From positions 1 to 21,541 of IMG/VR virus record IMGVR_UViG_3300009428_000092: DNA of 21,541 nucleotides, one strand, 5' to 3'. Below, piece by piece: positions 6,820 through 19,342 of the stretch. A model generated the notes under the pieces. It worked only from the letters and a program-made list of their open reading frames with translations. It did no database searches and was not told the DNA's origin. The translations under genes were made by a program, and so were the position numbers. Each line of letters starts with the position of its first letter. Position 1 is the first letter of the stretch. This DNA comes from a virus.

Positions 6820-8280
6820 ATGGCTGGAACATTTACTGGGAGCACACAGGCTCTCGCACATTTAACACCTCGTCCTAATAAGACGACATTTAACGACAAC
6901 TACCTGTCTATTGCAGGTAATGACTTCAACTTTACAAAACAATTCTTACCAGAAGTGTACGAGCAAGAAGTAGAGCGTTTTGGAAACAGAACAATCTCAG
7001 GCTTTTTACGTATGGTAGGAGCAGAAATGCCTATGGCTTCTGATACAGTAACTTGGTCAGAACAAGGAAGATTACACATTGCTTATGATGATGTAGCTGT
7101 AAAAGCTGCTACTACTGATGTTTTAGTATTCCCCGCAGGTCATTTGATTAGCGCAGGAATGACTATTGTAGTATCAAAAGCGGACGGAATCGTTGTAGAT
7201 AAGGCATTCGTTATATCAGTAGCAAATACAGAAGTTACTGTAGCATGTTACGGGGCACAAGCGGCTTTAAACGCTGCTATTGTTACCGCTGGACAAGCTG
7301 GAGCAACTCTTAAGTCTTTTGTTTATGGATCTGAATATGGAAAAAAATCACAAGACGGCGGTGCTTCTATTGACGCTTCATTCACACCTTTTACTAATAA
7401 GCCAATTATCTTAAGAGACAAGTATTCTGTAAGTGGATCAGATACTGCTCAAATTGGATGGGTTGAAGTTACTACTGAAGCTGGAACTGGGGGATACTTA
7501 TGGTATCTAAAGTCTGAGCATGAAGCTAGATTACGTTTTGACGATTACTTAGAAATGAGTATGATTGAAGCGGAGATTGCTGCAGTGCCGATTACTGACG
7601 CTTCAGGCGCAACATTAACTGGATCTGAAGGTTTATTTGCTGCTATCAAACAACGTGGGCTAGTTTACAACAATTCTGATTTTGATTCTGTAACTGGATT
7701 TCAATCAGGTGGGGTTGCAACAAATTACGTAGCGCCAACTGGCATCGACGAATTCGATACTATCCTACAAGAACTTGATAAGCAAGGAGCAATTGAAGAA
7801 AACATGCTTTTCTTAGATCGCGCTAAAGCTTTAGAGTTTGATAATATGTTAGCTGCTCAAAATTCTTATGGAGCTGGTGGTACATCTTACGGAGTATTTG
7901 AAAATTCCGAAGACATGGCGCTTAACTTAGGGTTTAGTGGATTCCGTAGAGGATCTTACGACTTTTATAAGACCGACTGGAAATATCTAAATGATTCTAC
8001 GACTCGTGGACTTATTGCTGATGTAGAAGGAGTTATTGTACCGGCTGGAGTATCAACTGTTTACGATCAGCAATTAGGTTCAAACATTCAAAGACCATTC
8101 CTACACACTCGTTATAGAGCTTCTGAAGCTGACGATCGTAGAATGAAGTCTTGGATCACTGGATCTGTTGGTGGAACTTATACAACTGCTGCGGATGAAA
8201 TGAATGTTCATTTCTTATCTGAAAGATGTTTAGTAACTCAAGCCGCTAACAACTTTGTATTGTTAACTAAGACTGCATAA
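6820..8280 (+). CDS. Major capsid protein, probably HK97 fold
   Basis: A 486-residue protein that would form the icosahedral shell. It follows the scaffold and precedes a terminator, as expected for this gene. The N-terminal part (residues 20-70) carries helical sequence like an N-arm (FTKQFLPEVYEQEVERFG). Residues about 100-168 form a beta-rich, Ala/Val-rich block that looks like an inserted domain. Residues 169-220 (FVYGSEYGKK, FTNKPIILRDKY, QIGWVEV) look like E-loop and backbone strands. Long helices follow at 230-260 and 310-345. Codon choice differs from neighbours: more AAC, TTC, TAC and CGT, typical of very high expression. No delta domain or protease site is evident. Identification rests on position, size, composition and resemblance to marine podophage capsid proteins. 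Confidence 0.88.
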   Translation: MAGTFTGSTQALAHLTPRPNKTTFNDNYLSIAGNDFNFTKQFLPEVYEQEVERFGNRTISGFLRMVGAEMPMASDTVTWSEQGRLHIAYDDVAVKAATTDVLVFPAGHLISAGMTIVVSKADGIVVDKAFVISVANTEVTVACYGAQAALNAAIVTAGQAGATLKSFVYGSEYGKKSQDGGASIDASFTPFTNKPIILRDKYSVSGSDTAQIGWVEVTTEAGTGGYLWYLKSEHEARLRFDDYLEMSMIEAEIAAVPITDASGATLTGSEGLFAAIKQRGLVYNNSDFDSVTGFQSGGVATNYVAPTGIDEFDTILQELDKQGAIEENMLFLDRAKALEFDNMLAAQNSYGAGGTSYGVFENSEDMALNLGFSGFRRGSYDFYKTDWKYLNDSTTRGLIADVEGVIVPAGVSTVYDQQLGSNIQRPFLHTRYRASEADDRRMKSWITGSVGGTYTTAADEMNVHFLSERCLVTQAANNFVLLTKTA

Positions 8281-10901: not shown

Positions 10902-13900
10902 ATGGCTGAATACATCCACACGTTTACCGTTGGTAGAATGAATAAAGACCTTGACGAACGTTTAGTTCCGAATGGAGAATACAGAGATGCTTTAAACTTA
11001 GACTTAGCTAATTCAGATGCAAGCGATGTAGGGGCTCTTCAAAATGTAGTGGGAAATATTCAACTAAGAGGAAACTCAGCTACAGGGGGCAGTTGGACAA
11101 GCAACTACATTGACGCTTTGACTAATCCTGTTTGTATAGGTACTTATAGAGATGACATAAACGAAAGAATATATTGGTTTATCGCTTCGGACCCAGATCC
11201 CGTTACGGGAGTAAAAGTTAGCGCCATTGCAGAATATGATCAAGCTTCAAATGCTGTAAACCCTGTTCTAGTAGATACTGCTGATATACTTAATTTTACT
11301 TCACAATATTTAATTACAGGGATTAACATTATTGATAAGTTTTTGTTTTGGACAGATGACCAAACAGAGCCAAAGAAGATCAATATTGAAAAGTTTAAAA
11401 CTGGATCTTGTAATTTTACTACACAAACAAAAATACCTGTTTACAACGCTGCCACAAATACATATGCAAATTTTCAATGTAGCAACGTACCAGCTTCATT
11501 GCTTGATTTTACAGAGGCAGATGTTACTGTGATTAAAAAATCACCGCTTACAGCTCCTGTCTTAGACATAGCAGCAAGTAAGTTTGGTAATAATTCTGCT
11601 GGCGATGGCATCCCAGGAACAGGGTTAAGCCCTGTTAGGACTACATATACAGTTACAGATCAAGAGAATTTTACCTACATCCCGAACCTTTCTTTTGCCC
11701 CGACAGAGTATGAGTCTATGCCTACCTATGGAGATTATGTTTTTAATACCAGCCCTGTAACAGGAAGTGCAAATTATTATCAAAACAGTAGCTTAGGAGC
11801 AAGTTGGGATGGTACCGTTACGTTTGATGTAAATCCCGCTTATGGCAATGACGCAGGTGGAAATCCTGTATGGAAGGTTGGTGATATATTAAATATGGAG
11901 TCAGATTATATTGATCCTTTAAATAATATATATAATTACCAAATAAGATTATTAATAAGTGCTATTAACGGAAATTCCGTTACAGGGGAGATACAAGCTA
12001 TCTCAACTAATATATTAAAATTTGAAACATCCGATGGTGTTAACATTCCTTTGGAATGGGAAGTTGTTTTAGAGGAGGGCGTGCCTATGTTTGAATATGT
12101 TTTTCCTAGATTTGCGTATCGCTGGAAGTATATAGATAATGAGTATTCCTGCTATTCTCCGTTTACAGACGTTGCGTTTGTTGGGGGGAAATTTGAATAT
12201 GTTTCTTCAGACGGCTACAACATTGGCATGACTAATAATGTAAGAAAGCTTATAATAAACAGCTTAACATGGGGATCTGATGAAGTTGTTGAGATAGATT
12301 TATTATTTAAGCAATCAAACAGCCCCGTTGTTTATACCGTAGATACATTAAAAAAGATTGACTACACGCAACAAACACCTAGCGGCGCGGTTTTGAACAC
12401 TTCTTATGAAATAAAAACAGAATTAATTGGAGCTGTTGTAGAAGGCAATCAATTGCTAAGACCCTGGGACAATGTTCCCCGAACAGCTAAAGCTCAAGAA
12501 ATTACAGGCAATAGAATAGTTTACGCTAACTACTTGCAAAATTACGACGTAGGCACCATTGATCTTGACGTAACTTTAACACGAAGACCTCATAAATCTC
12601 TTACTCAAAGTAATGTTGATACTTATGGCTGGCCTAATCAATTTACGGGATTACCTGAAGCTTCGTTAAAGTCCATAAGAACGTATCAAGCTGGAATTGT
12701 ATATAAGGACGCCTATGGCAGGGAAACCCCTGTATTTACAAGTGTTAATGGCTCTTTTGACGTGGATGTAATAGATTCTGACTCTGCAACTAGTATTAGT
12801 GTTAAACCTCTTTCATCACCTCCAGTATGGGCTACTCATTATAAATTCTTTATAAAAGAAATGTCTAATGAATATTATAACTTGGCAATGGATAGGTTCT
12901 ATCCAGCAGAGGACGGCAATGTTTGGTTGTCCTTTCCCTCTTCTGAAAGAAATAAAGTAAGCGAAGAAACCTACTTGATATTAAAAAAACAGCATGATAC
13001 CAGCGTAGCTGTTGATGATTTAACTAGATATAAAATAATAGCTATAGACAATGAAGTCCCAGAGTTTGTGGGCGAATTTCAAAAAACCAACTTTGGGGGA
13101 GTTGTAGTGATCTTAAACGAAATAGAACCAGGGTTTTTAACTTTAAGATTGAGGGGGCCTAGCTATTCCGCCAACCAATTGTTCCAAAATAACTTAACTT
13201 CTGATAATAGCATTAGGATAATTAAAGGTGGAAATAAAACTGAAGATTACCAAATAGAAAGATCAGCAATTTTAGGTGCGCCTGGAGCTGGTACAGATGA
13301 TTATACCATAACGTTGAAACGACCATTAGGTGGAGATGTTTCTTTTTTAGAAGGGTTACCCGTTGGCACTTCAGTTGAAATAGTCTTATTTAGTACCGAA
13401 TTTAAAAATAAAGCTGAATTTGAAGGAAGGTTTTTTGCTAAAATAAATAGAGATTTTCAATTTGAAAAAAATATTATAAGCCCATTTAGGGCCTTAGAGC
13501 CTAGATATGCTATTGTGGACGACATTGACTTTACGTATACGAATGCTCCTTTTTCAGGAGACGGTAACGGAGGTAAGGGATATCACTGGGGTGATTCGGG
13601 GTGGGCTGAGGGTGATTTGACTTGCGGAGATGAGGCTTTTAATAATAGAAGTCTTGGGCAAGGCAGCTGGGGTGGAGTTGGTGGCCTTTTATTAAATGAT
13701 TTATTTACTAACTATAACCCTCCTCAAGCGGATAATTTTTGGTTTGGGTATTCTTACATTAATTTAGAAAATGGATGGGGTACAATGATAGACAGCTTCA
13801 CAGGGCAATCTTCAGCTGCGGTTGGAAACTTTAATGGCTTAGCTACATCGGGTGCTCAAATAAGATTTGTGAACAATACTACAGGAGAATATTCTAATGT

Positions 13901-16454
13901 GTACACAATAAATCGAACTATTAGTAAGGCAACCAGTAGAGGGCGGGAAGAGTGGAATGCTATTGATGAGTGTCACACTTCTACAGATGGTAACAATAGA
14001 AAGTATACCGTAGCAATTGAATTAACAGAGCCAATACAGAATAATCTCGATTGGATTCCAAACGGACCTGGCCAATGGTCCAAGTTAAACAACGCTTTAA
14101 TAAGCATTCAGATTGTTACAGAAGAATATGATGGAGATAATAAATTACTTACCTCTTCAAACCCAGCTGTATTTGAGACTGAACCTAAAGAGGCAATAGA
14201 CTTAGATTTATATTACGAAGCTAGCGATGCTTTACCTATCTCCAATCACGCAAATGCTGTAAATCTAAATTGGTATAATTGCTATTCTTATGGGAATGGA
14301 GTTGAATCAAACAGGATTAGAGATGACTATAACGCAGTTTACATAGATAAAGGCGTTAAAGTTTCAACTGTTTTGGATGAACCATATGCTTCCGAAAGAA
14401 GAGGCAGTGGGCTTATATTTTCACAGATATATAATTCAACATCGGGTATTAACAGATTAAATCAATTTATACAAGCATTGCCCATAACAAAAGATTTAAA
14501 CCCTATATATGGAACAATACAAAAGCTACATACTAGAGATACAGATTTAATTTCTTTATGTGAAGATAAGTGTTTACGTATATTAGCAAATAAAGACGCT
14601 TTGTTTAATGCTGACGGGAATGTTAATCTAACAGGTAACACAGCTGTATTAGGCCAAGCTATGCCGTATGCAGGTGAATTTGGAATATCTAAAAACCCAG
14701 AATCTTTTTCTTCTTATGGATTTAGAGCTTATTTTACGGATAAGAACAGGGGAGCAGTGATTAGATTGTCTAGAGATGGTATAACTAATATAGCAGACAA
14801 AGGTATGTCTGGCTTTTTTGCTGATAACTTAAGAACATCAACTACAGCTATAGGGAGTTATGATGATGACAAGGATATTTATAACTTAACATTAAACAAG
14901 CTATCTAATTATTGGCAACTAAAGCTAAGTCCAGACGCTAGTTATCAATTAAACCCTGATTGTGATGCAACTACTAATCAGGTTACCTCTAATGCTACGG
15001 TATCTTTTAAAGAAAGCATAGATGGCTGGACAAGCAGAAAAAGCTTTATTCAAGAATCAGGAATAACTTTAAACAATATATATTACACTTTTAAAAAGGG
15101 CCTTGCGTGGGTTCACGGAGGTAATGCGCTTTATAACAATTTTTATGGAGTTCAATACGATAGCTCGTTTAATGTTTTAATAAATGAGCAGCCTGAGGTT
15201 GTTAAAGGATTTAAAACTTTAAATTACACAGGGACAAGAACTAAATTATTTGAGTATGAATCAAACGGGAGGTGGTACTCTATTGCTGAAATTAATGCTA
15301 ACGGATTAATACCTACTACCGTAAGCCAGAAGCAAGCTGGGTGGTATGTAAATTACGTTAAAACAGATTTAGAAGGAGGCGAGGTTAAAGAGTTTGCAAA
15401 AAAAGAAGGTAAATATTTTAATTATATTAAAGCTTTAACTATATTTAATGATTGCGAAATTATACCAGATGGTATAGGGGAGGTTACAGAAGAGGAATCA
15501 GACCCTCAAGAGTATATTTTAACTGTAACTATCGATGAAGAATGCAGCACAGGTAGCACCACTCCACCTGTTCCAGATTTAATTATTCAACTTACCGAAA
15601 ATCAAAGAGAGTGCGCTGATGCTAGCTCCGGCTTTAGCTATGTTAATCAACCCACCGCTTTAGCTGCCAAATGCGGAATGGATGCCTTTTTTACTAATAC
15701 AGTTCAAGGAAATTACTCTTTAGCCCAATGCGCTTCAATACCTAATTTTAAATATTTTTCTAGTGCCGGTATTGTAGTTGGGACTCAGTTGTATGACCCA
15801 GTAACAAATAGTGCTATTGGACCTAATGATCAAGGCTTTTACTTATATAAAGGAAGCTTAGATGGTGCCAGCGATATAACAGGCTGGTATTTAGATCCAT
15901 TAAATACGGCTTACACAATACCAAACAATTGGTATATTCTTGAAATTAGCGCAACTGGTACTATAGCTTCTTTAACTCAGTATAATACTTTAGGGCCTTG
16001 CGTAAGCGAGCCTTTAGTAGGAGGAGCAGTCATTGGGTTAGTTTGCAATAATTCAGGAGAGTCTGCTTGCCAGCCTGATTTAACTTTCAATAATTCTTCT
16101 GATTCTAGTGATTTATTATGTGACATAAGAAATTGGCTAGCGACTTGGGCTGGTGTCCCAGCCGCTAATAAGAGAAATGGATCTCGTATAGACTCAATTT
16201 ACTGGTACACAAATACATTTTTTGAAGTTGGTGATACCTTAAATAAATCACAAAGCACTTATAACAATAAATTATTTATATATTACCAATCTTCTAATGC
16301 AAATTACCAGCCAACGACGTTTACATACTCGGCGGGATCTTATTGGACTAACTTGAGTGCTATTCCAAACGAATATTATGTGGTAGCCACTAATGCTTCT
16401 GGCGTGGTTACTCAAAAAACTAAAATCAATACATTAACTGTAACCTGCCCTTAA
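10902..16454 (+). CDS. Giant tail nozzle / stabilisation-like structural protein
   Basis: An 1850-residue protein, the largest here. Its opening has GRMNKDLDERLVPNGEYRDA (residues 11-30), then SDVGALQNVVGN, recalling the start of nozzle proteins (T7 gp12 type) and 'stabilisation' proteins of marine and Bacteroidota podophages. Most of the chain is beta-rich with repeated aromatic/Asn/Asp strands, compatible with propeller-like and Ig-like domains. Around residues 1475-1530 comes GWYVN...KKEGKYFNYIK, then an acidic linker. The C-terminal 280 residues are Cys-rich and hold two diverged copies of one module (1571-1700 and 1723-1849), both opening and closing with Cys. Typical nozzle proteins are 700-900 residues, so this one seems extended by surface-exposed domains, perhaps for receptor contact. 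It begins three bases after the adaptor gene. No peptidase or glycanase motif was recognised. Confidence 0.75.
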   Translation: MAEYIHTFTVGRMNKDLDERLVPNGEYRDALNLDLANSDASDVGALQNVVGNIQLRGNSATGGSWTSNYIDALTNPVCIGTYRDDINERIYWFIASDPDPVTGVKVSAIAEYDQASNAVNPVLVDTADILNFTSQYLITGINIIDKFLFWTDDQTEPKKINIEKFKTGSCNFTTQTKIPVYNAATNTYANFQCSNVPASLLDFTEADVTVIKKSPLTAPVLDIAASKFGNNSAGDGIPGTGLSPVRTTYTVTDQENFTYIPNLSFAPTEYESMPTYGDYVFNTSPVTGSANYYQNSSLGASWDGTVTFDVNPAYGNDAGGNPVWKVGDILNMESDYIDPLNNIYNYQIRLLISAINGNSVTGEIQAISTNILKFETSDGVNIPLEWEVVLEEGVPMFEYVFPRFAYRWKYIDNEYSCYSPFTDVAFVGGKFEYVSSDGYNIGMTNNVRKLIINSLTWGSDEVVEIDLLFKQSNSPVVYTVDTLKKIDYTQQTPSGAVLNTSYEIKTELIGAVVEGNQLLRPWDNVPRTAKAQEITGNRIVYANYLQNYDVGTIDLDVTLTRRPHKSLTQSNVDTYGWPNQFTGLPEASLKSIRTYQAGIVYKDAYGRETPVFTSVNGSFDVDVIDSDSATSISVKPLSSPPVWATHYKFFIKEMSNEYYNLAMDRFYPAEDGNVWLSFPSSERNKVSEETYLILKKQHDTSVAVDDLTRYKIIAIDNEVPEFVGEFQKTNFGGVVVILNEIEPGFLTLRLRGPSYSANQLFQNNLTSDNSIRIIKGGNKTEDYQIERSAILGAPGAGTDDYTITLKRPLGGDVSFLEGLPVGTSVEIVLFSTEFKNKAEFEGRFFAKINRDFQFEKNIISPFRALEPRYAIVDDIDFTYTNAPFSGDGNGGKGYHWGDSGWAEGDLTCGDEAFNNRSLGQGSWGGVGGLLLNDLFTNYNPPQADNFWFGYSYINLENGWGTMIDSFTGQSSAAVGNFNGLATSGAQIRFVNNTTGEYSNVYTINRTISKATSRGREEWNAIDECHTSTDGNNRKYTVAIELTEPIQNNLDWIPNGPGQWSKLNNALISIQIVTEEYDGDNKLLTSSNPAVFETEPKEAIDLDLYYEASDALPISNHANAVNLNWYNCYSYGNGVESNRIRDDYNAVYIDKGVKVSTVLDEPYASERRGSGLIFSQIYNSTSGINRLNQFIQALPITKDLNPIYGTIQKLHTRDTDLISLCEDKCLRILANKDALFNADGNVNLTGNTAVLGQAMPYAGEFGISKNPESFSSYGFRAYFTDKNRGAVIRLSRDGITNIADKGMSGFFADNLRTSTTAIGSYDDDKDIYNLTLNKLSNYWQLKLSPDASYQLNPDCDATTNQVTSNATVSFKESIDGWTSRKSFIQESGITLNNIYYTFKKGLAWVHGGNALYNNFYGVQYDSSFNVLINEQPEVVKGFKTLNYTGTRTKLFEYESNGRWYSIAEINANGLIPTTVSQKQAGWYVNYVKTDLEGGEVKEFAKKEGKYFNYIKALTIFNDCEIIPDGIGEVTEEESDPQEYILTVTIDEECSTGSTTPPVPDLIIQLTENQRECADASSGFSYVNQPTALAAKCGMDAFFTNTVQGNYSLAQCASIPNFKYFSSAGIVVGTQLYDPVTNSAIGPNDQGFYLYKGSLDGASDITGWYLDPLNTAYTIPNNWYILEISATGTIASLTQYNTLGPCVSEPLVGGAVIGLVCNNSGESACQPDLTFNNSSDSSDLLCDIRNWLATWAGVPAANKRNGSRIDSIYWYTNTFFEVGDTLNKSQSTYNNKLFIYYQSSNANYQPTTFTYSAGSYWTNLSAIPNEYYVVATNASGVVTQKTKINTLTVTCP
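15612..16451 (+). repeat. Duplicated Cys-bounded C-terminal module in the giant tail protein
   Basis: Copy 1 spans about residues 1571-1700 (15612-16001) and copy 2 about 1723-1849 (16068-16448). Shared features in order are: Cys at the start, a second Cys about 17-20 residues on (AAKC / DLLC), a helix, an aromatic strand (KYFSS / YWYTN), VG-x-x-L (VGTQLYD / VGDTLNK), an aromatic strand (GFYLYKG / LFIYYQ), IPN-x-x-Y (IPNNWYILE / IPNEYYVVA), ATG or ASG with V/I, and a final Cys (LGPC / VTCP). The copies are too diverged to be a DNA repeat; the similarity is at protein level. Confidence 0.6.
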
Positions 16455-16464
16455 ATAAAATAAT

Positions 16465-18489
16465 ATGCCAACCATAAATAATTACACATTTTCTTCGGTA
16501 TCTTTTAGCGTACAAGAACAAACTTTTATTTCGGACACTCAGTCAACCGCGGTTTTAACAATATCCCCAGCTGCAGGTTATTCTGTTGCTGTTGGCGATT
16601 TTTCACTAGATCCTAGCTTTTCTAATCAATATGTAAACACTGTAGTTTTTGTTCAGGACGGAAATAATGTTATATGTACAGTTACTTTTTTAACTGATGT
16701 ACAAATGCCTTCTGACAATGTTACCATACCTCTATGTGTTATAGGGGAAGGCAGTATAAATGCTTTACCTGTTTCTGGAACATTTTCAGCCAATGTTGCA
16801 GCTGCAGTTATTGGATCCGGCGCGGAAGTAGACACTCCTTATAGTGCTTCGGGTCTTGAGGGAGCACAGGTTTCTTTGATTACTAGGTCGTATTCAGCTC
16901 CTTCTGGATTTTTTATTGCGTCTTCTGCTCCTCAAATAGTTGTAGGAAACCAATCTAATTATACCTTCGGTACTACCAACACATTTGACGCACTAGGAAA
17001 CATAACAACAATTTCTTATGATTTCAAATACTTATTTCCAGGGGTAGGCGTGTCAGGAGATAAAATTACTATTAAAGGAATTAATGTTTACGCTTTAAGA
17101 TTACCTCAACCGTTAGAAGTAACTGGGTATAGCACTTTACCTGTATTTATGCAGTTTAGTGGAGGAAACTTTTCTTGGAATGTATTTGGAGTGGACGGAG
17201 CTAGTTTTAGTGCTTCTATGACAGATGGAGTAGATACAGTAACCATAGCTACCAATGTTATTATCGGCACAGGAGGCGTTAGTTCTCAGATCATAGAGTT
17301 CCCTACGTATTTAGGGAATACGTACAAAGACTGGACACTGACTTTAACAGGTGATCTCCAATCTCCTTTTTCACAAGACAACCCTGCTACCATAAGGCAA
17401 TATGCTGCAAACGTAACCACATTGACCGCTAGTTCTGCAAACGGAATTGTAGGGTTTACACCGATTTTATCAACGCTACCTGCTTTACAGCAATATGCTA
17501 CCCCTATGGTTTATCCTGTATCCTGGAATCTATCGGTTCCCGCTGGAACAATAATTAGTGAACGTCAGCCCATAATATATGATGTAACAGAAGTGATATC
17601 AATATTTGCAGGAGCCGATGGTTCTCAGTCGAACGTATCTTCATTAAATATTAATAATTTGGTTGCGTTATACGGATCTTTGCAAGTTGGAGATAGATTT
17701 AATGTAAACGCACCTTTAACTACTTTTGGACAAGCCCCTTTCCCTTATGAGGTGACAGCGGTTAATTCCTCTACTAATATAAGCGTATCCCCCAACATAA
17801 CAGTTACAGACGAAGACGGGCTTAGGTTCTATAGAACTAATGGCACGGCGTTTAGCCTTACAAATGTTACATTTACTCAAGTGGACAATCAAAATATAAC
17901 ATTAGATTTTGATCTTGAAATAACCGCAACAGGAGACGTAAGCACAACACTAACTTTAGATTTAGACAATATAATAGACTTTGCACCTGCGATTGCTTGT
18001 AATGCGACTATCCCTAGTGGTGGTGTAGGTGTTACGGATACTTCTGTAGCACTAGATCCAGCTGGTGGGGTTGTTTGCTTCTTAGTTGATCCAGTAGGCG
18101 TGCCCGATAAATTTGAGATTGTACATGGAATTGCAAATGGAACCAAGGTTGCTACGTCAGGAATGAATACGACTGGAAATTTTGGGCCTTTCGATAACAC
18201 ATTTGGTACAGAGACAACAAACGTAATACCAACGGTTGCAGAAGCTACAAGCACTTTGCAGTTTATAGGTACAAGCAAAGGAACTATAGACACGCGCCAA
18301 ACTGAATTTACCGCAGCTACCGGAGAAACAATAGCAACTATGCAGCCTGGAGGAGTTGGTACTATTTATAAACAAGTGTTATGGTGGAAATATACCGCTG
18401 CAAATTATGTTACAAATCCAACTGCAACGTTTAGAGTTACTGGCCCTACAGGAACGGGATGGAGTGCTCTAAGAGTGTGCTTCCCTTAA
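16465..18489 (+). CDS. Beta-rich structural protein, possible tail or head fibre
   Basis: A 674-residue protein rich in Thr, Ser, Val, Asn and Gly with alternating hydrophobic patterns throughout, suggesting a chain of Ig-like or fibre beta domains. It opens MPTINNYTFSSVSFSVQEQT. No membrane segment, signal peptide or enzyme motif is seen. Cys is sparse. The C-terminal 110 residues form a compact Thr/Ala/Gly-rich block ending WSALRVCFP, similar in its final Cys-x-Pro style to the end of the giant tail protein just upstream. It begins 10 bases after that protein's stop and is followed at once by another small structural gene, so all three may form one tail sub-assembly. A receptor-binding or decoration role is inferred from composition and place only. 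Confidence 0.65.
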   Translation: MPTINNYTFSSVSFSVQEQTFISDTQSTAVLTISPAAGYSVAVGDFSLDPSFSNQYVNTVVFVQDGNNVICTVTFLTDVQMPSDNVTIPLCVIGEGSINALPVSGTFSANVAAAVIGSGAEVDTPYSASGLEGAQVSLITRSYSAPSGFFIASSAPQIVVGNQSNYTFGTTNTFDALGNITTISYDFKYLFPGVGVSGDKITIKGINVYALRLPQPLEVTGYSTLPVFMQFSGGNFSWNVFGVDGASFSASMTDGVDTVTIATNVIIGTGGVSSQIIEFPTYLGNTYKDWTLTLTGDLQSPFSQDNPATIRQYAANVTTLTASSANGIVGFTPILSTLPALQQYATPMVYPVSWNLSVPAGTIISERQPIIYDVTEVISIFAGADGSQSNVSSLNINNLVALYGSLQVGDRFNVNAPLTTFGQAPFPYEVTAVNSSTNISVSPNITVTDEDGLRFYRTNGTAFSLTNVTFTQVDNQNITLDFDLEITATGDVSTTLTLDLDNIIDFAPAIACNATIPSGGVGVTDTSVALDPAGGVVCFLVDPVGVPDKFEIVHGIANGTKVATSGMNTTGNFGPFDNTFGTETTNVIPTVAEATSTLQFIGTSKGTIDTRQTEFTAATGETIATMQPGGVGTIYKQVLWWKYTAANYVTNPTATFRVTGPTGTGWSALRVCFP

Positions 18490-18853: not shown

Positions 18854-19342
18854 ATGTCTAAAAATCCAATAAAATCAAATAATACTCAATTAAGCAACTT
18901 CGCACACCAGTTGGAGGATTTGCAAAATGTAATGATTGAAAATAACCATATGGATCACGTGTATGGAGACGGTAAAAGTCTAGTTAACAACGATATATTT
19001 AAAATAGAAAATGATTTTTCTGACCAGTTGTATATGCGTAAAATGCACATGCCTAAAGAGTGTGTTGTAATTAGCGCAATGCACCATACAGAACATTTTT
19101 GGTTTTTATTAAAAGGTAAAATCCTTGTTACCACAGAAGGTGAACAAGTAGAACATATAGCTCCTTGTTTTGAAAAGTCTATGAAAGGAGCTAAAAGATT
19201 AATATTGTCTTTAGAGGATTCTTTATTTATAAATGTACATAAAAACCCAACAAATACTAGAGACATGAAGCAGGTTGAAGAATCCTTGTATTCAATAACA
19301 ATTGAAGAGTACAATAAAAAAGAAAAATTATGGCAGGAATAG
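18854..19342 (+). CDS. Cupin-like protein among virion genes
   Basis: A 162-residue protein with a helical N-terminal part (residues 10-32) and a central cupin-like barrel. The metal-site region is SAMHHTEHFWFLLKGKILV: His77, His78, Glu80 and His81, followed by G-K-I-x-V. This resembles cupin motif 1 (H-x-H then E then G) with compressed spacing. A second His (His129, in FINVHKNPTN) could complete a metal site as in cupin motif 2. The Lys/Gly stretch MKGAKRLILS lies between. Cupins include enzymes, sugar isomerases and metal-binding structural proteins, so substrate cannot be stated. Its last 13 bases overlap the next gene, tying it to the internal virion genes. A virion-borne or assembly role is likely but unproven. 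Confidence 0.65.
   Translation: MSKNPIKSNNTQLSNFAHQLEDLQNVMIENNHMDHVYGDGKSLVNNDIFKIENDFSDQLYMRKMHMPKECVVISAMHHTEHFWFLLKGKILVTTEGEQVEHIAPCFEKSMKGAKRLILSLEDSLFINVHKNPTNTRDMKQVEESLYSITIEEYNKKEKLWQE

Follow-up and report, generated by a model that had tools for sequence, protein, structure and literature searches.

A C-terminal module cassette, apparently exchanged between phages, on the muzzle protein of a crAss-like phage

Crassviruses are described as sharing a highly conserved muzzle that is likely to act as gatekeeper of ejection (PMC10172136). In phage crAss001, its crass domain lies at the tip, where it is presumed to touch the cell and set off ejection, and the protein shares a ring-joining domain and a propeller with gp12 of phage T7 (PMC10172136), which is reported to have a fibre dock on its outside, adjoining a C-terminal platform (PMC6702177). 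Muzzles of the crAss001 type are described as varying in length through insertions in the regions of the crass and IG2 domains (PMC10172136), and a precedent for receptor binding by a nozzle-type protein has been reported from Vibrio phage OWB (PMC7241545). Here we describe a muzzle protein encoded in a 21,541-nucleotide stretch of viral DNA (IMG/VR record IMGVR_UViG_3300009428_000092, positions 1 to 21,541; hereafter the window). The last ~300 of its 1,850 residues hold two related modules, M1 and M2 (Table 1), and sequence comparison with its relatives gives good support for reading this C-terminal part as an exchangeable cassette that is swapped between phages.

Several lines of sequence similarity identify the 1,850-residue open reading frame (ORF) as a crAss-like muzzle, or tail gate, protein. 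It matches phrog_14478 (E 6.9e-131), and the Pfam domain PF25729 (crAss_MUZ_C) scores 30.1 bits against a cut-off of 27, in agreement with an earlier note, made from the sequence alone, that had called it a nozzle-type tail protein. Among the matches listed (the 50 best and 60 spread), cultured relatives align from residue 1 and never past residue 1528. Taken together, the PHROG and Pfam matches and the ends of these alignments indicate that the ORF is a crAss-like muzzle and that the modules are an addition past its conserved end. Several module-less relatives terminate shortly past the end of the core. The match to gp44, the muzzle of crAss001, is weak (whole-sequence E 0.9, one stretch E 0.00089), and an attempt to place the protein on solved structures by sequence failed.

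Table 1. Features of the muzzle locus, in window coordinates.
Feature	Description	Coordinates	Strand	Basis
Module M1 (class A)	residues 1582-1700, 119 residues; helix Cys 1591, terminal Cys 1700	15645..16001	+	class profile match
Module M2 (class B)	residues 1727-1850, 124 residues; helix Cys 1740, terminal Cys 1849	16080..16451	+	class profile match
crAss-like muzzle protein P0001	1850 aa plus stop	10902..16454	+	PF25729, phrog_14478, cultured relatives' alignments
Conserved muzzle core	residues 1-1548, ends 'TVTIDEEC'	10902..15545	+	aligned in 46 distinct complete muzzles
PF25729 crAss_MUZ_C domain	residues 1411-1510	15132..15431	+	Pfam match
Linker	core to first module	15546..15644	+	gap between core end and profile match
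Downstream gene P0002	674 aa, no Pfam match	16465..18489	+	starts 10 nt past muzzle stop

The earlier note had proposed that the protein ends in a duplicated module of about 128 residues, and the landmarks it named are present in both copies: VG-x-x-L reads VGTQL in M1 and VGDTL in M2, IPN-x-x-Y reads IPNNWY and IPNEYY, and each copy has its pair of Cys residues. Two related segments were thus correctly seen, with lengths to be revised as in Table 1. The alignment that the note had called for reveals a weak pairwise likeness: residues 1570-1705 and 1716-1850 give a local score of 61 (shuffle mean 32.6, s.d. 6.1, z 4.7), which was equalled by 4 of 2000 shuffles, as the global score was by 8 of 2000, and BLASTP of M1 against M2 (E 7e-5) covers 25 residues only. 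From the window's two copies alone, a repeat is likely, not certain. The question is settled by family profiles, according to which M1 and M2 are related domains. Comparing 15 first with 14 second modules, hhalign returned a probability of 98.2 (E 3.9e-14, 111 columns), and a profile of 26 first modules detects second or third modules in eight distinct relatives (E 6.8e-21 to 1.4e-8) and picks up part of window M2 (E 0.0016). The matches of M1 to its class profiles (E 5.5e-34 and 3e-33) are not independent, as window M1 sits in both, and window M2 is likewise included in the profile that it matches at E 7.0e-37.

An AlphaFold model of residues 1341-1850 predicts a similar order of elements for both modules, with strands after a long helix (M1 has five strands, M2 four and a further one of two residues), rather than the different folds that the earlier note had set against its own claim; confidence is limited, being low to middling for M2 (10-residue means 35-77) and poor for the core part. 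What did not hold is duplication as a recent local tandem event in the window phage, because M1 and M2 belong to two classes, A and B, that recur across the clade, and class B can occur singly, as it does in relative L013, where it stands alone.

To survey the clade, 71 relatives were taken from IMG/VR with six peptide patterns, one of which sits in M1, so that the module-bearing share may be inflated. Eighteen open-ended muzzle ORFs and L072, in which translation from the start of the match meets a stop after 363 residues, were left out of the counts, as were L082, L083 and L087, which had been retrieved through a module query, that is, by having a module. The 52 usable relatives and the window, less seven identical proteins, gave 46 distinct complete muzzles (the window and 45 others), in which modules were annotated with the class A and class B profiles at E <1e-3; a module lost through a stop codon would be tallied as merely a shorter protein. 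Module number, which the earlier note had proposed to compare, varies: 15 muzzles have none, eight have one, 22 have two and one has three. In a separate search of 14 relatives' records, 22 module matches were obtained at E up to 1 (21 of them at ≤1.8e-4) in 11 records, all in muzzle-length ORFs or in the interrupted L072 muzzle.

The same C-terminal slot can hold other sequence. Extensions without any module occur in L058, L067 and L071, and a further ~340 residues follow the modules of L003, L014 and L037. The slot of L026 contains 225 residues with DUF285 (E 2e-26) and a sub-cut-off PKD match, that of L067 a Big_9 match barely above its cut-off, those of L014 and L003 a BNR match under its cut-off, and that of L031 151 extra residues with no domain assignment. 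In the muzzle-like genes of L112 and L113, proline-rich linkers and GCTDP..NYDP..DDGSC repeats lie there; these contigs are filed under a Maricaulis and a Flavobacteriales metagenome-assembled genome, and the Maricaulis filing may be mis-binning.

Among isolated phages, tblastn with four module queries returned no match or chance-level Salmonella phage rows (E 0.8-2), and the muzzles of five isolates carry no module. A bacterial origin of the modules was considered and set aside, as none of 60 candidate genome-contig stretches encoded a relative, in a search without a positive control. Nor was any match found in 397 genomes of the family of Flavobacterium caseinilyticum or in two further searches, again without a positive control, so that these empty results carry little weight. 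An 862-kb F. caseinilyticum contig (L118) does harbour, from about position 6992, a divergent relative of the muzzle that occupies two ORFs; it may be a crAss-like element that has integrated or decayed.

Evidence for exchange comes from relatives that are similar enough to align as DNA. All 990 pairs of the 45 relatives were examined for a match of at least 80% over at least 2 kb that reaches the core end; 25 pairs qualified, and in nine of them the alignment was lost before the stop codon. In all nine the break lies no more than 52 nucleotides from a module boundary (core end in four pairs, M1 end in three, M2 end in two), and in eight no more than 29. Similarity resumes 9-22 nucleotides past the stop in four pairs, 44 nucleotides before it in one and at least 191 nucleotides past it in the remaining four, and the start of P0002 in the relatives is the right edge of the exchanged stretch. 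Breaks at boundaries, with resumption often right past the stop, fit recombination between the conserved core and the next gene, and crossing over in these two flanks would most simply account for the exchange. The nine pairs perhaps represent about six separate events.

Individual cases illustrate the pattern. L038, L060 and L051 have cores 93-95% identical, yet carry one, one and three modules. Between L038 and L060, 10.6 kb of DNA match at 90%; the cassette then has no match, and immediately beyond the stop codon similarity returns for 4.7 kb at 85%, which makes the cassette the sole gap in 15.8 kb. The M2 modules of L009 and L029 are 94% identical on cores of 59% identity, and the corresponding DNA match (87.5%) spans M2 plus some 360 nucleotides past it; those of L004 and L051 are 89% identical, again with cores at 59%. 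For class B second modules, module identity has no detectable link to core identity (Spearman 0.09, 105 pairs). On the core tree (quick method, LG+G4, no shuffle control) at least 16 changes are required among nine architecture states. Variation driven by a diversity-generating retroelement was rejected, as the reverse transcriptase domain PF00078 was found in none of 14 relatives' records (which may be fragments); the window genome offers only 21.5 kb for this question.

Mean pairwise identity, calculated in 50-residue windows over 39 muzzles (ours included) with gaps counted, is 0.24-0.28 in M1, 0.22-0.86 across the core and lowest in M2 at 0.08-0.13, a figure that takes in rows lacking M2 or holding another class there. 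The lowest-identity part of the core, residues 901-1050 (about 13602-14051), is a second highly variable stretch of the muzzle, possibly in the distal crass domain.

The modules are ~110-150 residues long and fall into at least two sequence classes; in an alignment of 40 rows, two Gly and one Pro are invariant, and the helix Cys and the terminal Cys each occur in at least 90% of rows. Of 55 modules scored by script, 48 have both Cys, five have neither and two have one. When the two single-Cys modules were reread, L002 proved to be without either (a Cys other than that of the helix had been scored) and L015 to have both, its helix Cys having been missed because the profile match began past it, which brings the tally to 49 with both and six with neither. 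As the five script-negative modules are one subclass, the pair may have been lost only twice. A disulfide would be a simple explanation for a pair that is kept or lost together; disulfides are described as stabilising the tail barrel and hubs of crAss001 (PMC10172136). Additional Cys residues are found in window M1 and in L016 and L024. M1 modelled alone with AlphaFold (40 sequences) reached a predicted local distance difference test score of 84.1 and a predicted template modelling score of 0.78.

No credible match to the module family was found in Pfam, PHROGs, NCBIfam or the PDB. One of 40 members matched a PHROG at E 0.0079, and two NCBIfam models of fructose-bisphosphatase each matched one of 40 (best E 0.0015); these were taken as chance. 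When PDB sequences were searched with the class A profile, pentatricopeptide chains came up through the summing of tiny matches, as did polyamine-binding chains with E-values of 1.4-1.5; both were rejected. A Pfam scan of 15 class A and 14 class B members gave no BACON match and only isolated weak ones, including one Big_4 at E 0.062, so the modules do not classify as BACON or Ig-like adhesins. By structure, the best Foldseek match to the PDB had E 1.1, VIA-align gave no Z ≥2 among 998 chains, and a viral structure library gave no E <0.001; three of its rows with probability 0.95-0.97 (E 0.033-0.052) are uncharacterized proteins of uncultured phages and Virus NIOZ-UU157, and there is a weak row for Cellulophaga phage phi17:1 (E 2.2, probability 0.25). 

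What the cassette does can be addressed from its position and its pattern of change. We lean, with reasonable rather than high confidence, towards a cassette fused to the muzzle for display to the host and secondary to the fibres. Its properties suggest a changeable contact surface on the gate protein, and host cells are probably its target: position, exchange and the other domains found in the slot together fit a display site for host contact. Adhesion by the modules is thus a fair inference, based on position and variation pattern because the module has no relative of known function, and any coupling of module contact to the gate is speculative. If the protein is arranged like T7 gp12, in which the C-terminal domain forms the platform beside the adaptor, the modules would sit at the shoulder of the muzzle near the tail barrel, not at its tip. 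Each would be a small domain of a helix and strands, stapled by one disulfide between its helix Cys and terminal Cys, and if the muzzle is hexameric as in crAss001, 6-18 of them would surround the tail. There, close to where muzzle and tail barrel meet, they would bind host surface structures, most likely as a secondary contact that helps to commit or trigger, and a swapped cassette would retune attachment or triggering with the gate itself conserved.

A secondary contact is favored because a relative, G002, whose core is 61% identical, has a separate tail fibre gene, whose 1044-residue product carries an S74 chaperone domain and matches fibre-type PHROGs. The modules, by comparison, are fused to the muzzle ORF and do not form a separate trimeric tail fibre or tailspike protein; that they are the sole recognition element is unlikely. 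A bolder version, in which a new family of disulfide-stapled domains forms an interchangeable collar of 6-18 copies on a hexameric gate and makes a receptor contact mechanically coupled to that gate, and specificity evolves by cassette swap independently of the fibres, seems to us doubtful.

Several observations weigh against an exchanged display cassette. S74 matches (E up to 0.01) occur in eight of 14 relatives' records, seven of them above cut-off, and six of the eight records bear modules and two do not, so host range may lie with separate fibre-type proteins. About a third of the distinct muzzles (15 of 46) manage without a module, and the modules have no relative of known function to speak for adhesion. 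The excess of C-terminal variation that the earlier note expected is seen in M2 and not in M1, which is no more variable than core windows 901-1050 (0.22-0.25). In 16 of the 25 qualifying pairs there is no break, the match running past the stop codon; the nine broken pairs overlap, since seven of them come from just two clusters of relatives and are not independent, and a test that required the match to reach the core end is blind to breaks within the core. Module similarity also partly tracks that of the core (Spearman 0.23 for first modules, a weak link over 435 pairs, and 0.40 for later class A modules over 36).

The same facts about fibres could be read another way, with the modules as domains that dock or decorate the tail fibres or collar of the phage itself, and that vary because the fibres vary. 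T7 gp12 offers a model for this, its C-terminal platform contacting the adaptor and its fibre dock lying between propeller and platform, as described in PMC6702177, and the ring-joining domain of crAss001 is reported to be T7-like (PMC10172136). Fibre-type genes do differ among the relatives (besides S74 in 8 of 14 records, another fibre-like protein is present in 10 of 14), and the third gene downstream of the muzzle can differ between the close relatives L060 and L051. We nevertheless regard docking as unlikely, since the occurrence of one or three modules on cores 93-95% identical, or of none at all, is more in keeping with a display that can be dispensed with than with a structural socket.

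Alternatively, the cassette might be mainly a neutral or weakly selected landing site, a C-terminus that tolerates fusions and whose contents are swapped by recombination between the core and the next gene. Breaks at the edges of conserved stretches and the several unrelated domains that occupy the slot would be expected in that case, whereas the invariant Gly and Pro residues and the near-invariant Cys pair across very divergent modules, and the presence of at least one module in 31 of 46 distinct muzzles, would not, and we think this explanation improbable. Equally hard to favor is adhesion to targets other than the host (organic particles, free glycans or other organisms), for although modular Ig-like and BACON adhesins of gut phages, some of them crAss-like, are reported to confer epithelial binding (PMC13370021), the BACON match is absent from the modules scanned and such an adhesin would seem odd on an ejection gate.

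Other genes near the muzzle also vary. The third gene downstream (P0009, window 18854-19342) matches short-tail-fibre and adhesin PHROGs, and its counterparts in L060 (13565-14113) and L051 (14420-14908) have no DNA match; it is a second variable spot near the muzzle. In record G005, the stretches 23033-23746 and 25760-26473 score equally and are both 46% identical to a fibre-like protein of G002, perhaps through recent duplication or an assembly repeat. G002 also encodes (L120:5571-7160) a GroEL-type chaperonin (phrog_5725 at E 1.8e-138; PF00118). P0002 and the phi13:2 muzzle had seemed alike at their ends, but a profile search did not support this.

Upstream, the window encodes TerL, the portal and further virion genes, and the muzzle stands where it would be expected, at the end of the gene order TerL, portal, capsid, ring, muzzle; the capsid and ring genes are putative, named from gene order. 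By PHROG match, TerL and portal are followed by three genes labelled merely 'virion structural protein', and two genes upstream of the muzzle had no PHROG match or were outside that search. The layout before the muzzle is the same in phi38:1. P0001 matches 87 phage records (Flavobacterium 68, Cellulophaga 15, Tenacibaculum 2, Maribacter 1, unclassified 1). The named relatives that we opened are 29.6-36.4% identical over 36-53% of P0001 and belong to Pervagoviridae, Elemovirus and Pachyviridae, with one unclassified; their taxonomy lines do not carry the name Crassvirales, and several come from seawater. The window phage is crAss-like and related to seawater phages of Flavobacteriia.

An exchanged muzzle cassette, if confirmed, would point to a contact site that can be tested, in a phage group of which few members are in culture. 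Nozzle-type proteins would then join the places in which phages hold recognition domains that can change, and the type and number of modules could serve as a marker for comparison with host data.

Modular, shuffled tail adhesins are already known, and our literature search, which covered titles and the starts of abstracts, found no description of a muzzle or nozzle protein with a cassette of modules at its C-terminus. Domain mosaicism and recent exchange tied to host interactions are reported for modular receptor-binding proteins (PMC10684548), much as we propose here; the shuffling described concerns receptor-binding proteins, endolysins, neck and replication proteins, and the available portion of that paper mentions neither 'crass' nor 'nozzle'. 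The BACON and Ig-like adhesins of gut phages, crAss-like phages included, similarly combine small domains in variable ways (PMC13370021), but they are a different domain family from the modules, and 'muzzle' does not appear in the part of the source at hand. As a gate or nozzle-type tail protein, the window muzzle resembles tail tubular protein B, or gp12, of T7 and TTPA/TTPB of phage OWB, for which added variable modules are not mentioned in the accessible parts of the reports (PMC7241545, PMC6702177). The closest parallel is gp44 of crAss001, described as a large gate protein that follows the ring proteins at the tail end and is thought to contact the cell (PMC10172136). Unlike the window muzzle, gp44 (1371 residues) ends ~95 residues past the stretch that aligns weakly with the core, with no appended module recognizable by eye (it was not scanned with the module profile). 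Variation of the gp44 type is therefore internal, whereas that of the window's clade takes the form of a cassette at the C-terminus.

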